The notes under the pieces were generated by a model that was not told the origin of the DNA, did no database searches, and was given only the letters and a program-made list of their open reading frames with translations. A stretch of DNA of 64,000 bases from Ensifer sp. BR816 (lineage in GTDB: Bacteria > Pseudomonadota > Alphaproteobacteria > Rhizobiales > Rhizobiaceae). Each line of letters opens with the position of its first letter. Position 1 is the stretch's first letter. The position numbers and the translations under genes were made by a program. The DNA lies in contig NZ_KB905370.1 of assembly GCF_000378985.1 (NCBI RefSeq), forward strand, positions 5,206,799 to 5,270,798. Direction: 5' to 3'. This document shows, in pieces, positions 53,590-60,065 of the stretch.

Positions 53590-54780
53590 ATGACCGAACA
53601 TAACGTCCGCAACTTCAACATCAACTTCGGTCCGCAGCATCCGGCGGCGCACGGCGTTCTCCGGCTCGTGCTGGAGCTCGACGGCGAGATCGTCGAGCGC
53701 GTCGATCCGCATATCGGCCTCCTGCATCGCGGCACCGAGAAGCTGATCGAGACCAAGACCTACCTGCAGGCGGTGCCCTATTTCGACCGGCTCGACTATG
53801 TCGCGCCGATGAACCAGGAGCACGCTTTCGCGCTCGCCGTTGAACGGTTGACGGGCACGGAGGTGCCGATCCGCGGCCAGCTGATCCGCGTTCTCTATTC
53901 GGAAATCGGCCGAATCCTCTCGCATCTCCTCAACGTCACCACGCAGGCAATGGACGTTGGCGCGCTGACGCCGCCGCTGTGGGGCTTCGAGGAGCGCGAG
54001 AAGCTGATGGTGTTCTATGAGCGGGCCTGCGGCGCGCGCATGCACTCGGCCTATTTCCGTCCGGGCGGCGTGCATCAGGATCTGCCGCATGAACTGGTCG
54101 AGGATATCGGCAAGTGGATCGATCCGTTCCTGAAGACCGTCGATGACATCGACGAGCTCCTGACCGGCAACCGCATCTTCAAGCAGCGCAACGTCGATAT
54201 CGGCGTCGTCAAGCTGGACGACGCCTGGGCCTGGGGCTTCTCGGGCGTCATGGTGCGCGGTTCGGGTGCCGCCTGGGATCTGCGCCGTGCGCAGCCCTAC
54301 GAGTGCTATTCCGACCTTGAATTCGACATCCCGATTGGCAAGAACGGCGACTGCTACGACCGTTATCTCATCCGCATGATCGAGATGCGCCAGTCGGCGC
54401 TGATCATGCGCCAATGCGTCGATCGCCTGCTGGGCGACGCGAAGGTCGGGCCGGTCTCCTCGCTCGACGGCAAGATCGTGCCGCCGAAGCGCGGTGAGAT
54501 GAAGCGCTCGATGGAAGCGCTGATCCACCACTTCAAGCTCTATACCGAAGGCTATCACGTGCCGGCCGGGGAAGTTTACGCCGCCGTCGAGGCACCGAAG
54601 GGCGAGTTCGGCGTCTATCTCGTTTCCGACGGCACCAACAAGCCCTACCGCTGCAAGATCCGTGCGCCGGGCTACGCCCATCTGCAGGCCATGGATTTCC
54701 TCTGTCGCGGACACCAGCTCGCCGACGTCTCGGCGGTGCTGGGCTCCCTCGATATCGTGTTCGGCGAGGTGGATCGCTGA
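53590..54780 (+). CDS. nuoD: NADH-quinone oxidoreductase subunit D
   Basis: NuoD, the 49-kDa subunit, forms much of the quinone pocket. The 396-residue protein starts with [20 protein letters not shown] and has [30 protein letters not shown], and the end [22 protein letters not shown]-like ([19 protein letters not shown]). Length is normal. Its TGA shares a base with the ATG of the small gene at 54780, so expression of that gene is coupled. Confidence 0.98.
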
Positions 54781-55034
54781 TGCGTCTGGCGCCGATTGCC
54801 GTTCTCGGATTTCTGGCGTTTTGCCCGGCAGCCCTGGCTCAGGAGGATGTCGGCAGCACGTCCTCGTCGGGGCTACACGGCGGCTCCATGGCCGGGCTCC
54901 TGTCGAAGGGATACGAGATCAAGGCAGCCGTCGCCAATGGCACGCGCTACATCGTGTTTTTGCAGAAAGACCAGTCAGCCTATGCCTGCGAATTCGTCAC
55001 GCTGACGAAATCGCGGTGCGGCTCGATTAATTGA
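54780..55034 (+). CDS. Small exported protein inside the nuo operon, 84 aa
   Basis: The protein begins with a signal peptide ([20 protein letters not shown], cleavage before QED) and has a short mature part with [38 protein letters not shown] and a second Cys near the end (SRCGSIN), possibly a disulfide with the first. The ATG overlaps the nuoD stop and nuoE begins 16 bases after its end, so it is a true operon member. It is not a standard complex I subunit. A periplasmic role is inferred from the signal. Confidence 0.82.
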
Positions 55035-55050
55035 TAAGGTGTCCACTAGA

Positions 55051-55896
55051 ATGTCCGTTCGTCGACTAGCCGAAGACACTGTCCAGCCAGCGGCCTTTGC
55101 ATTCAGCAAGGAGAACGCCGCCTGGGCTGAGGCAACGATCAACAAGTATCCGAAGGGCCGCGAGCAGTCGGCGATCATTCCCTTGCTGATGCGCGCCCAG
55201 GAACAGGACGGGTGGGTGACGAGAGCGGCCATCGAGTCGATCGCCGACATGCTCGGCATGCCCTATATCCGCGCCCTCGAAGTGGCGACCTTCTACACGC
55301 AGTTCCAGCTGAAGCCGGTCGGTTCTCGCGCCCATGTGCAGGTCTGTGGCACGACGCCCTGCATGCTGCGCGGCGCGGAAGACCTGATCAAGGTCTGCAA
55401 GACGAAGATCGCCGCCGACCCCTTCACGCTGAACGGAAGCGGCACGCTCTCCTGGGAAGAGGTCGAATGTCAGGGCGCCTGCGTCAACGCGCCGATGGTG
55501 ATGATCTTCAAGGACACCTATGAGGACCTGACGCCCGAGCGTCTCGAGGAAATCATCGATAGCTTCGACGCAGGCAAGGGCACTGAAATCAACCCTGGCC
55601 CCCAGATCGACCGCGTCTATTCCGCCCCGGTCGGCGGCCTGACGACGCTGCAGCTCGTCGAAGCGCCTGTAAAGACGAAGGCGCCGGCCCGCGCAGCCAA
55701 GTCAAAGGATGACGGGAGCAAGGACGACAAGGCGGTCAGCGTGCCGCCATCGAATGCCGCCAAGCCGAAGACCTCCGCGGATGTCACCAATCCGGCGCTG
55801 AAGACCCCGGCGACCGCGAAGAAGGCGGCGGCGAAGAACGCCAAGGCCGAAGGCGAGACGGTCGACAAGTCCAAGCCGGCGAAGAAGCCGCGGTAA
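55051..55896 (+). CDS. nuoE: NADH-quinone oxidoreductase subunit E with long C-terminal tail
   Basis: NuoE binds the [2Fe-2S] cluster N1a through C99, C104, C140 and C144 (QVCGTTPC and CQGAC). The thioredoxin-like core ends near residue 190; the remaining 90 residues form an Ala/Lys/Pro-rich, low-complexity tail ([28 protein letters not shown]). Usual NuoE proteins are about 165-220 residues. The ATG at 55051 follows AAGGTG by 9 bases; GTG 55039 is less likely. In related bacteria the tail often ends in a helix-hairpin-helix domain, absent here but present in the gene at 57219. Confidence 0.95.
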
Positions 55897-55907
55897 AGAG
55901 GTGACCT

Positions 55908-57212
55908 ATGCTGAGAGATGAAGATCGCATCTTTACCAATATCTACGGCCTCAAGGACAAGTCGCTCAAGGGCGCGATGTCGCGCGGCCATTGGGATGGC
56001 ACCAAGGCGCTTCTCGAAAAGGGCCGCGACTGGATCATCAACGAGGTGAAGGCTTCGGGCCTTCGCGGCCGCGGCGGCGCCGGCTTCCCGACCGGCCTCA
56101 AGTGGTCCTTCATGCCGAAGGAAAGCGACGGGCGCCCGCACTACCTCGTCGTCAACGCCGACGAATCGGAGCCCGGCACCTGCAAGGACCGCGACATCAT
56201 GCGCCACGATCCGCACACGCTGATCGAGGGCTGCGTGATCGCCAGCTTCGCCATGGGCGCGCATGCGGCCTATATCTATGTGCGCGGCGAGTTCATCCGT
56301 GAACGCGAGGCGCTGCAGGCGGCAATCGACGAATGCTACGATTACGGCCTGCTCGGCAAGAACAACAAGCTCGGCTACGACATCGACGTCTTCGTCCATC
56401 ACGGCGCGGGCGCCTATATCTGCGGCGAGGAAACGGCGCTCTTGGAAAGCCTGGAGGGCAAGAAGGGCCAGCCGCGCCTGAAGCCGCCATTCCCGGCGAA
56501 TATGGGCCTTTATGGCTGCCCGACGACCGTGAACAACGTCGAGTCGATCGCCGTCACGCCGACCATTCTCAGGCGCGGTGCCGGCTGGTACACCAGCTTC
56601 GGCCGCCCCAACAATCACGGCACCAAGCTCTATTCGGTCTCGGGTCACGTCAATCGGCCCTGCACGGTCGAGGACGCGATGTCGATCCCGTTCCACGAGC
56701 TGATCGACAAGCACTGCGGCGGCATCCGCGGCGGCTGGGACAACCTGCTTGCGGTCATCCCCGGCGGCTCGTCCGTTCCCTGCGTGCCCGGTGCGCAGAT
56801 AAAGGACGCCATCATGGATTTTGACGGCCTGCGCGAGCTTGGTTCGGGTCTCGGAACGGCCGCCGTCATCGTCATGGACAAGTCGACCGACATCATCAAG
56901 GCGATCTGGCGGCTCTCCGCCTTCTACAAGCACGAAAGCTGCGGCCAGTGCACGCCGTGCCGCGAAGGCACCGGCTGGATGATGCGCGTCATGGAGCGCA
57001 TGGTGCAGGGCCGCGCCCAGAAGCGCGAGATCGACATGCTCTTCGACGTGACGAAGCAGGTCGAAGGCCACACGATCTGTGCGCTTGGCGACGCGGCCGC
57101 GTGGCCGATCCAGGGCCTGATCAAGCATTTCCGTCCGGAAATGGAAAAGCGGATCGACGAATATACGCGCAACGCCACCTCGCACGGCGCGGTATTGGAA
57201 GCAGCGGAGTAA
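55908..57212 (+). CDS. nuoF: NADH-quinone oxidoreductase subunit F
   Basis: NuoF binds NADH and FMN and carries cluster N3. The 434-residue protein shows the NAD-binding [13 protein letters not shown], the FMN region [24 protein letters not shown] and the cluster ligands [11 protein letters not shown] followed later by a fourth Cys in [13 protein letters not shown]. It lies 11 bases after nuoE. Normal length and composition. Confidence 0.98.
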
Positions 57213-57218
57213 CGAGCG

Positions 57219-57887
57219 ATGGCAGGGACGCGCAATGAAGGACAGGACATGAAAGCGACTGCAGTCATTCCTTTCGTGCGGCCCTTGGGCGCCGGCTCGA
57301 CCGATCCGTTCGGCATGGCCGAATGGATGAAGACCATGCCGCCTGTTCCGCTGATGGCCAATCCCGTGGCTGCCGTAGCGGCGGCGACCGCGCTCGGCTT
57401 CGGCCTGTCGAGCCACTTCGCAGGCGTCATGTTCGGCGCCATGCAGGGGGCTGCAAACGCCCTGCAGAAGAGCGCCGGCGCGGCCGAACCGGCGGAGATT
57501 GCCGAACCGGCGCCGGCGATCGAAAAGCCCGAGCCTGTAATTCAGCAGGCTTCGCCAGCGCCGGCAGCCCGCGAGTCCAACCCGGCTCCAGCCGCCCGCG
57601 AGGCTCGGCCCGCACCGGCTGCTGTCGCCAAGCCCAAGGCGCGCCCCGCCACGAAGCCCGTCACGGCGAAGCCGAAGGGCGGCGTCGCCGACAATCTGAA
57701 GCGGATTTCCGGGATCGGCCCCAAGCTTGAGCAGGTGCTGAACGGCAGGGGCCTTCGCCGGTTTGCCGACATCGCCGCTCTCAGCGAGAAGGATGTCGCG
57801 CGGATCGATGCCGAGTTCGCGCTCAACGGCCGCATCCTGCGGGACGATTGGATCGGCCAGGCAAAGACGCTGATCGGCAAGAAATAA
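57219..57887 (+). CDS. Helix-hairpin-helix protein between nuoF and nuoG
   Basis: This 222-residue protein is not a standard complex I subunit. Residues about 41-80 are hydrophobic (PVPLMANPVAAVAAATALGF), residues about 85-155 are Ala/Pro/Lys-rich, and residues 157-222 form a helix-hairpin-helix (VADNLKRISGIGPKLEQVLN, FADIAALSEKDVARID, DDWIGQAKTLIG). The last part is like the C-terminal domain fused to NuoE in other Alphaproteobacteria. Starts at 57219 (GGAG nine bases before) or 57249 are both possible. It may anchor or assist assembly of the NADH module; this is inference. Confidence 0.85.
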   Translation: MAGTRNEGQDMKATAVIPFVRPLGAGSTDPFGMAEWMKTMPPVPLMANPVAAVAAATALGFGLSSHFAGVMFGAMQGAANALQKSAGAAEPAEIAEPAPAIEKPEPVIQQASPAPAARESNPAPAAREARPAPAAVAKPKARPATKPVTAKPKGGVADNLKRISGIGPKLEQVLNGRGLRRFADIAALSEKDVARIDAEFALNGRILRDDWIGQAKTLIGKK

Positions 57888-57986
57888 CGTGACGGCTGTC
57901 CGGTCGTCACCACACCGGAAGAGCCGTGAAGGAATTGTCCGGCGCCGCAGAAGGCAGCCGGACGGAAGACAGGATTGAGTGCGAAG

Positions 57987-60065
57987 ATGGCAAAGCTGAA
58001 AGTCGACGGAAAAGAGATCGAGGTCCCGGATCATTTCACGCTGCTTCAGGCGTGCGAAGAGGCCGGCGCCGAGGTTCCGCGCTTCTGTTTCCATGAGCGG
58101 CTTTCGGTTGCCGGCAATTGCCGCATGTGTCTGATCGAGGTGAAGGGCGGCCCGCCGAAGCCCGCCGCCTCCTGCGCCATGGGCGTGCGCGATCTGCGCC
58201 CCGGCCCGAACGGCGAGGCGCCGGAAGTCTTCACGACCACGCCAATGGTCAAGAAGGCCCGCGAAGGCGTCATGGAATTCCTGCTGATCAACCATCCGCT
58301 CGACTGCCCGATCTGCGACCAGGGCGGCGAATGCGACCTGCAGGACCAGGCGATGGCCTTCGGCATCGACAGTTCGCGCTATCAGGAAAACAAGCGCGCC
58401 GTCGAAGACAAGTACATCGGCCCGCTCGTCAAGACGGTGATGAACCGCTGCATTCACTGCACGCGCTGCGTCCGCTTCACGACGGAGGTCGCGGGCATCG
58501 CCGAGCTCGGGCTGATCGGCCGCGGCGAAGATGCGGAGATCACTACCTATCTCGAACAGGCGATGACCTCGGAACTGCAGGGCAACGTCGTGGATTTGTG
58601 CCCGGTCGGCGCGCTGACCTCGAAGCCTTTCGCCTTCACCGCGCGCCCGTGGGAGCTCAACAAGAGCGAATCGATCGATGTCATGGACGCGGTCGGCTCG
58701 GCGATCCGCGTCGACACGCGCGGCCGCGAGGTGATGCGCGTCATGCCGCGTGTCAACGAGGAGATCAATGAAGAGTGGATCTCCGACAAGAGCCGCTTCA
58801 TCTGGGACGGGCTGAAGACGCAGCGTCTCGACCGGCCCTATGTGCGGAAGGACGGGCGGCTGCAGTCGGCGACCTGGAGCGAGGCCTTCCAGGCGATCAA
58901 GGCGGCCGTCGCCAACAGCTCCGGCGGCAAGATCGGCGCGATCGCCGGCGACCTCGCATCCGTCGAGGAAATGTACGCCCTGAAGGAACTCGTTGCTTCG
59001 CTCGGCTCCGAGAATATCGACTGCCGCCAGGACGGCGCAGCGCTCGATCCGTCACTCGGCCGCGCCAGCTACATTTTCAATCCGACGATCCAGGGGATCG
59101 AGAGTGCTGACGCGCTGCTCATCATCGGCTCCAACCCGCGCTTCGAGGCTTCCGTCCTCAACGCGCGCATCCGCAAGCGTTATCGCATGGGCAAGTTCCC
59201 GATCGCCGTCATCGGCGAAAATGGCGATCTGCGCTATGAATATCAGTATCTCGGCGCCGGTACCGAAACGCTTGGCGAACTCGTTTCCGGCAAGGGCAAG
59301 TTCTTCGAGACGCTGAAGAAGGCAGAACGGCCGCTGATCATCGTGGGCCAGGGCGCTCTCGCAGGCGAGGGCGGTGCTGCCGTTCTCGCCAGCGCGGCAA
59401 AGCTCGGCGTTGCTGTCGGCGCGGTCGGCACGGAGTGGAACGGCTTCGCCGTCCTGCACACGGCAGCCTCGCGCGTCGGCGGCCTGGACCTCGGTTTCGT
59501 CCCCAGCAACGGCGGCATGTCGGCGGCGCAGATGGTCGGCGGCGCGGACGTGCTGTTCCTGCTCGGCTCCGACGAGATCGATCTTTCGGCAAGGAAAGGC
59601 TTCACCGTTTACATTGGCTCGCACGGCGACAATGGCGCGCATGCGGCGGACGTCATCCTCCCAGGTGCCGCCTATACGGAAAAATCCGGGACCTGGGTCA
59701 ATACCGAAGGCCGTGTACAGGTCGGCAACCGCGCCGGCTTTGCACCGGGCGACGCACGCGAGGACTGGGCGATCATCCGCGCGCTTTCCGATGTGCTCGG
59801 CCGGAAGCTGCCGTTTGATTCGCTTGGCGAATTGCGTGCGAAGCTCCACGCGGCTCATCCGCATTTCGCAGAGGTCGACAGCATTGCTGCAGGAAGCAGC
59901 GACGAAATTGCCGCACTTGCGCAAAAAGCCGGTGAGATGGCCAAATCCGTGTTTGCGTCTCCGGTCAAAGACTTCTATTTGACGAACCCGATAGCGCGCG
60001 CATCCGCCGTCATGGCCGAATGCTCGGCTTTGGCGCGCAACAATTTCAAAGCTGCCGCGGAATGA
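57987..60065 (+). CDS. nuoG: NADH-quinone oxidoreductase subunit G
   Basis: NuoG, the 75-kDa subunit, holds clusters N1b, N4 and N5. In the 692-residue protein the N-terminal [2Fe-2S] ligands appear in RFCFHERLSVAGNCRMCLIE, the His/Cys cluster in HPLDCPICDQGGECDLQDQ and the next set in RCIHCTRCVRF; the rest is a molybdopterin-oxidoreductase-like domain without the Mo site. The ATG at 57987 gives the normal N-terminus MAKLKVDGKEIEVPD. A 99-base gap precedes it, longer than others in the operon. Confidence 0.97.
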   Translation: MAKLKVDGKEIEVPDHFTLLQACEEAGAEVPRFCFHERLSVAGNCRMCLIEVKGGPPKPAASCAMGVRDLRPGPNGEAPEVFTTTPMVKKAREGVMEFLLINHPLDCPICDQGGECDLQDQAMAFGIDSSRYQENKRAVEDKYIGPLVKTVMNRCIHCTRCVRFTTEVAGIAELGLIGRGEDAEITTYLEQAMTSELQGNVVDLCPVGALTSKPFAFTARPWELNKSESIDVMDAVGSAIRVDTRGREVMRVMPRVNEEINEEWISDKSRFIWDGLKTQRLDRPYVRKDGRLQSATWSEAFQAIKAAVANSSGGKIGAIAGDLASVEEMYALKELVASLGSENIDCRQDGAALDPSLGRASYIFNPTIQGIESADALLIIGSNPRFEASVLNARIRKRYRMGKFPIAVIGENGDLRYEYQYLGAGTETLGELVSGKGKFFETLKKAERPLIIVGQGALAGEGGAAVLASAAKLGVAVGAVGTEWNGFAVLHTAASRVGGLDLGFVPSNGGMSAAQMVGGADVLFLLGSDEIDLSARKGFTVYIGSHGDNGAHAADVILPGAAYTEKSGTWVNTEGRVQVGNRAGFAPGDAREDWAIIRALSDVLGRKLPFDSLGELRAKLHAAHPHFAEVDSIAAGSSDEIAALAQKAGEMAKSVFASPVKDFYLTNPIARASAVMAECSALARNNFKAAAE

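Follow-up and report, generated by a model that had tools for sequence, protein, structure and literature searches.

The nuo cluster of Ensifer sp. BR816 raises a simple question: what is the small gene between nuoF and nuoG, and what does a protein ending in an H3TH (helix-hairpin-helix) domain do at a locus for complex I? The window studied here, a stretch of 64,000 nucleotides, contains the rhizobial nuo cluster with the features collected in Table 1. An earlier note, made from the letters alone, had described a NuoE ending in an Ala/Lys/Pro tail without a terminal domain and, between nuoF and nuoG, a gene with a linker and a helix-hairpin-helix domain; the two were suspected to be parts of one split or duplicated module that could help the NADH-dehydrogenase part of complex I.

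Table 1. Features of the nuo locus discussed in the text (positions refer to the window).
Feature	Position	Strand	Remarks
nuoE	55039..55896	+	285 aa, without H3TH domain
NuoE C-terminal tail, Ala/Lys/Pro-rich, residues 195-285	55621..55893	+	aligned with fused relatives
NuoE in-frame deletion junction (H3TH removed)	55882..55887	+	~100 residues separate TVDKSKPAK from the final KPR in fused relatives, none in the window
nuoF	55908..57212	+	434 aa
nuo-locus H3TH protein ("F-G type")	57219..57887	+	222 aa
F-G protein, N-terminal signature segment, residues 49-87	57363..57479	+	AlphaFold2, composition, conservation, dN/dS 0.12
F-G protein, Ala/Pro-rich linker, residues 88-157	57480..57689	+	mostly low pLDDT
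F-G protein, H3TH (helix-hairpin-helix) domain, residues 158-222	57690..57884	+	Pfam/NCBIfam matches, AlphaFold2, structure comparison
nuoG	57975..60065	+	frame counted from its first start codon; translation may truly begin at an ATG a few codons further on

The description of the two proteins was borne out. The thioredoxin-like [2Fe-2S] domain of NuoE is formed by residues 31-176 (PF01257, 5.9e-49), and the Ala/Lys/Pro tail that follows gives no further Pfam match. NF009040, the 400-position NCBIfam model for long NuoE of the fused kind, covers the window protein only up to model position 287, and no H3TH match was obtained, so this NuoE is not of the fused type; the free protein, in turn, has no match to PF01257. 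Of the solved chains resembling NuoE, Paracoccus 8qby_E ranks first, with an alignment that spans NuoE residues 8-225. The available text of the paper on the Paracoccus complex I structure (PMC11522691) names NDUFS4, NDUFS6, NDUFA12 and a methyltransferase.

The free protein (F-G protein hereafter) is a variant of an already known H3TH module. Its residues 83-219 match positions 241-384 in the C-terminal part of NF009040 with an E-value of 5.4e-23, the highest-ranking Pfam family is HHH_5 (E 2.4e-4; 22 bits, short of the curated 27), and its C-terminal part is also matched by the NCBIfam models of long L21, long S2 and PhaH. In the AlphaFold2 model (overall pTM 0.39) residues 161-220 are helical with pLDDT of 95-97, preceded by a short helix 33-39, a long helix 49-87 of low confidence and a low-confidence linker. 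Structure comparison places the C-terminal domain in the helix-hairpin-helix class. Its neighbours by VIA-align are the RadA N-terminus, DNA polymerase iota and NusA AR2 (Z 6-7.9); values in this range are common for small helical domains and therefore name a fold class, not a function. Foldseek gave no match below E 0.67. The window domain carries the motif of the H3TH tails, DLKxIxGhGPKxE...GRIxRDxWxxQA (~65-75 residues), read from column counts over 181 domains.

The F-G protein is the product of a real gene under purifying selection, which is strongest in the helix and in the H3TH domain. In 12 codon pairs of relatives picked by the analyst the dN/dS ratio is 0.12 in the helix and 0.16 in H3TH, against 0.28 in residues 1-48 and 0.39 in the linker. 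The gene follows nuoF after 6 bases and is itself followed by nuoG; no promoter 5' of it was found in a scan covering the sigma-70 type. A literature search, to which subscription journals were mostly closed, returned no description of a rhizobial protein encoded between nuoF and nuoG.

Two further observations were made around this locus. A frame of 84 aa (54780-55034, plus strand), the start of which resembles a signal peptide, lies between nuoD and nuoE; similar frames occur in 17 of the 180 nuo loci, that of the window among them, with 62 matches among the frames of the 80 named loci described below. The genome of the window also contains a second NuoF-like match (G000 C1:213726-214886, minus strand, 52% identity, E 5e-124), perhaps of a formate dehydrogenase or of a second complex I.

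The distribution of both forms was examined in 180 nuo loci, namely 80 from the family (window included), 42 from the order and 58 from the class, in which gene order was read with profiles around NuoF. A NuoF match was found in 79 of the 80 family genomes searched and all 79 were taken; 41 of 44 order genomes were taken; the 58 class loci come from 124 matching genomes (that of the window included) by a selection leaning to the best scores, with G036 and G070 counted under the order. Fusion of NuoE to such a domain in other Alphaproteobacteria, mentioned in the earlier note, is indeed frequent (91 of 180 loci, NuoE being out of view in two). The H3TH call was made at E 1e-3 with a profile built from the same loci, by which divergent tails may be missed and scored as unfused. 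The free protein stands between nuoF and nuoG in 45 loci, and in 36 of these NuoE is fused as well.

In the family, NuoE is fused without any free protein in 27 loci, fused with a free F-G protein in 34 and fused with free proteins on either side of nuoF in one; it is unfused with a free protein in 8, unfused without it in 9 and out of view in one. The order loci comprise 23 with fused NuoE alone, one fused with a free F-G protein, one fused with a free protein between nuoE and nuoF, 15 unfused, one unfused with a free F-G protein and one with NuoE out of view. Nearly all class loci (54 of 58) are unfused without a free protein; two are fused and two are fused with a free protein between nuoE and nuoF. 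A separate set of 80 named loci, chosen by similarity to the free protein and hence not a random sample, holds it between nuoF and nuoG in 80 of 80, with NuoE fused in 65, unfused in 14 and out of view in one. Matches to the free protein were obtained in 113 of 120 order genomes and 73 of 81 family genomes.

These counts bear directly on the assumption of a split module, according to which the F-G protein arose by fission of a fused NuoE and stands in, in trans, for the lost tail. In favour of fission, the two proteins share one domain family and the window NuoE lacks its H3TH; simple fission is nevertheless excluded by the 36 loci where fused NuoE and free protein stand together. The NuoE sequences of close relatives tell the same. 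In Ensifer sesbaniae (L273) and E. adhaerens (L271) the segment TVDKSKPAK is followed by ~100 residues including H3TH (exactly 100 in L273) and then by the terminal KPR, and in the window, S. meliloti 4H41, S. medicae and strain USDA 6670 TVDKSKPAK is joined directly to KPR. The stretch is also missing in a relative of the same genus (G300), with small changes around, and the domain is kept in L271, L273 and another strain named Sinorhizobium, 6-70. We read this, from the alignment, as one in-frame internal deletion in an ancestor common to the lineage of the window, S. meliloti, S. medicae and USDA 6670. The NuoE domain was lost by deletion, with the last residues of the protein still in place.

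Compensation for the lost tail by the free protein was rejected too. On a tree of 119 rows (FastTree of NuoF, NuoG and NuoD) at least 23 changes are required for NuoE H3TH and 17 for the free protein, and loss of the former shows no association with presence of the latter (independent-pairs test on the same tree, median p = 1). So many changes without association mean that the NuoE tail is labile and that the free protein is no simple replacement for it. Help for the NADH-dehydrogenase part of complex I, as suggested in the earlier note, is possible on these data. Origin by fission is accordingly very improbable. Loss by deletion, together with coexistence with fused NuoE, makes the F-G protein a second H3TH carrier at complex I, and the split module of the earlier note has to be given up.

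The duplication considered in the earlier note may or may not have taken place: so short a domain yields no firm tree, and identities and tree alike would fit a common origin with the NuoE tail or a separate one. The mean identity of the free F-G domain is 49% to all NuoE domains, 50% to L21 and 49% to S2, the classes L21, S2 and PHB depolymerase in this comparison being assigned from short motifs (Pfam confirmed the two L21, two S2 and two depolymerase proteins compared with it). Within the 35 family genomes that have both forms, the free domain is 52-53% identical to NuoE domains. For 43 of the 45 F-G domains the nearest neighbour at a different locus is again of the F-G type; in a FastTree of 181 domains the largest clade of at least 90% purity contains 21 of 45 F-G and 50 of 91 NuoE domains, and the F-G type is not united. 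Gene conversion between the two copies of one genome was tried as well and rejected, since identity is 0.529 within the same genome vs 0.525 between genomes, a value reached in 741 of 5000 permutations (35 family genomes).

What distinguishes the F-G protein is its N-terminal segment. Residues 49-87 are nearly uncharged (49-83 entirely so) and Ala/Gly-rich, P49 and the glycines (G60, G62, G69, G73, G77) are conserved, and one long helix is predicted with low confidence (pLDDT of 52-78 by block). The segment is nearly confined to the nuo locus, just past nuoF. Searched on its own in 77 family genomes, its profile gave 42 matches below 1e-4, one per genome, of which 41 lie on the same strand 32-763 bases 3' of nuoF, so that the placing of this protein within nuo, presumed in the earlier note, holds; the remaining one (G336) belongs to a genome in which no nuoF was found. 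Three weak matches (0.003-0.008) sit elsewhere. The profile misses 3 of 43 family F-G proteins (G268, G279, G334), and hence the segment is not uniform. Against solved structures it gave nothing below E 1.4.

Encoded in nuo, conserved and specific to this locus, the F-G protein is a candidate accessory protein of complex I. It is missing after nuoF in 37 of 80 family loci, and complex I does without it there. In one of these loci (L125, genome G320) the N-terminal part is retained in a nuo-locus protein of 124 aa, whose frame ends before H3TH; the neighbouring NuoE is fused.

The helix is a borderline candidate for a membrane helix. By the Kyte-Doolittle scale the window segment reaches 1.61, the median over 65 segments is 1.47 and 14 of the 65 reach at least 1.6, whereas the transmembrane types of the H3TH family lie above this, at 1.8-3.2.

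A profile of the H3TH domain finds two strong chains among solved structures. One, 9wqv chain a, is named "NADH:ubiquinone oxidoreductase 41 kd complex i subunit"; the other is protein-O of Dinoroseobacter shibae (PDB 8yy9 chain O). In the available text of PMC12079452 the gene of protein-O is flanked by the genes of subunits E and F, the protein itself is resolved in RC-LH1, where its N-terminal transmembrane helix-turn-helix lies between RC and LH1, and its C-terminal domain is described as flexible and resembling the C-terminus of NuoE, with the function called unknown. Like the F-G protein, protein-O is a free H3TH protein from nuo with a helical N-terminal part and a long flexible linker; unlike it, protein-O is encoded between nuoE and nuoF, and it probably differs also in its N-terminal two-helix transmembrane hairpin. 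The window protein matches 8yy9_O over the linker and H3TH only (residues 91-218), with no match by sequence at the N-terminus. For this part AlphaFold2 gives the single low-confidence helix of borderline hydrophobicity described above. A full-length match to protein-O (7.5e-27) at the same nuoE-nuoF position is found in genome G134 (L213). Free H3TH proteins with hydrophobic N-termini lie between nuoE and nuoF in L160, L185 and L212 as well as in L213, the one compared with protein-O.

Protein-O is encoded in nuo and is yet a part of RC-LH1 (PMC12079452, available text), so a position in nuo is no proof of binding to complex I. By analogy, nuo could be merely the site of the gene, with the F-G protein serving another membrane complex. 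The restriction of the match to linker and H3TH speaks against this. The same holds for the distribution of the reaction-centre gene (PF00124), found in none of the six genomes searched, which include G015, G134, G233, G268 and that of the window; a control search gave 1 match in 14 (Synechococcus). RC-LH1 is therefore not the common partner, and with no PF00124 match in the four genomes whose nuoE and nuoF flank a free H3TH gene, genes of this kind cannot be there for RC-LH1 alone. We regard service to another complex as doubtful.

The H3TH domain is by no means limited to complex I. In a partner census drawn from best matches only, it ends L21, S2, L19, PHB depolymerase, cytochrome c1, a LivG-like and two Opp/Dpp-like ATPases, the partner domains being confirmed by Pfam for the examples tested. 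It also ends small single-helix membrane proteins (of six run against Pfam, five gave no match and one matched HHH-type and Cdd1 models only), and in one ABC ATPase it is near the N-terminus. Cytochrome c1 (PF02167) with a C-terminal H3TH in genome G295 is a second respiratory complex with the module, and H3TH tails are carried by L19, LivG-like and Opp/Dpp-like ABC ATPases and PHB depolymerases in L377, L366, L018, L352, L014 and L006. The fused NuoE (NF009040, PRK12373) resembles the F-G protein in its C-terminal H3TH after an Ala/Lys/Pro linker and in its nuo locus; the F-G protein differs from it in being encoded by a separate gene, with its own N-terminal helix and without the [2Fe-2S] domain. 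Tailed L21, S2 and L19 have the same C-terminal domain but a ribosomal N-terminal one. In the genome of the window no second H3TH was found: the profile search gave the F-G protein at 2.0e-29 and the next match at E 0.83.

The phasin PhaH of Caulobacter (NF045508) is the relative with a reported activity. In the available part of a review (PMC13052382) its HHH domain is described as binding DNA irrespective of sequence, and PHB granules as being positioned along the nucleoid by PhaH. The window protein shares its C-terminal HHH domain (3.3e-15, model positions 137-231); its own N-terminal part is left unmatched by the model, and it reaches 56.9 bits at a cut-off of 250. Identity with a phasin was rejected: at 1e-25 the PhaH model gave no match in 61 order genomes, that of the window included, with a control match in Caulobacter vibrioides, and Pfam Phasin matches 1 of 12 members, at E 0.33.

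Binding to DNA in the manner of PhaH, by which the F-G protein would keep complex I or the membrane near the nucleoid, is possible rather than probable. The match to the PhaH model over the HHH part is consistent with it, as are the fold shared with RadA, DNA polymerase iota and NusA AR2, the 13 basic vs 9 acidic residues of the window domain and the basic tails (mean net charge +4) of cytochrome c1 and the Opp/Dpp-like ATPases. In most classes, however, the mean net charge is about zero or negative (F-G -0.7, NuoE -0.2, L21 -2.6, S2 -4.2, L19 -5), the strongly conserved residues include E171, W211 and Q214 besides R and K, which looks more like a specific partner than the DNA backbone, and similar folds bind proteins too (NusA AR2 with SuhB, by the title of the structure entry). 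With charge running from -5 to +4 and E, W and Q conserved, a shared docking partner is to be preferred, DNA being one option for it.

We therefore tentatively propose, with a probability of about 0.4, that the F-G protein is an adaptor dedicated to nuo. Its N-terminal Ala/Gly helix would anchor at complex I or at the adjoining membrane, the flexible linker would give reach to the C-terminal domain, and H3TH would dock on a partner that the F-G protein shares with the ribosome, cytochrome bc1, RC-LH1, ABC transporters and PHB proteins. A broader idea, which we consider unlikely as it stands, is that H3TH is a common docking tail on alphaproteobacterial machines for energy metabolism, translation and storage (complex I twice, cytochrome c1, RC-LH1, L21/S2/L19, PHB depolymerase and phasin, ABC ATPases), gathered by it at one cellular partner; the genome of the window would be down to a single carrier, with complex I as the last client.

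The adaptor proposal brings together three separate reports, those of the long rhizobial NuoE, of protein-O, unexplained in its reaction centre, and of PhaH, a phasin with reported binding to DNA. With the split reading corrected, S. meliloti and other model rhizobia gain a candidate accessory protein of complex I. Should a single partner stand behind the shared tail, it might be identified by pull-down from a rhizobium poor in H3TH proteins, such as that of the window, in whose genome one was found.
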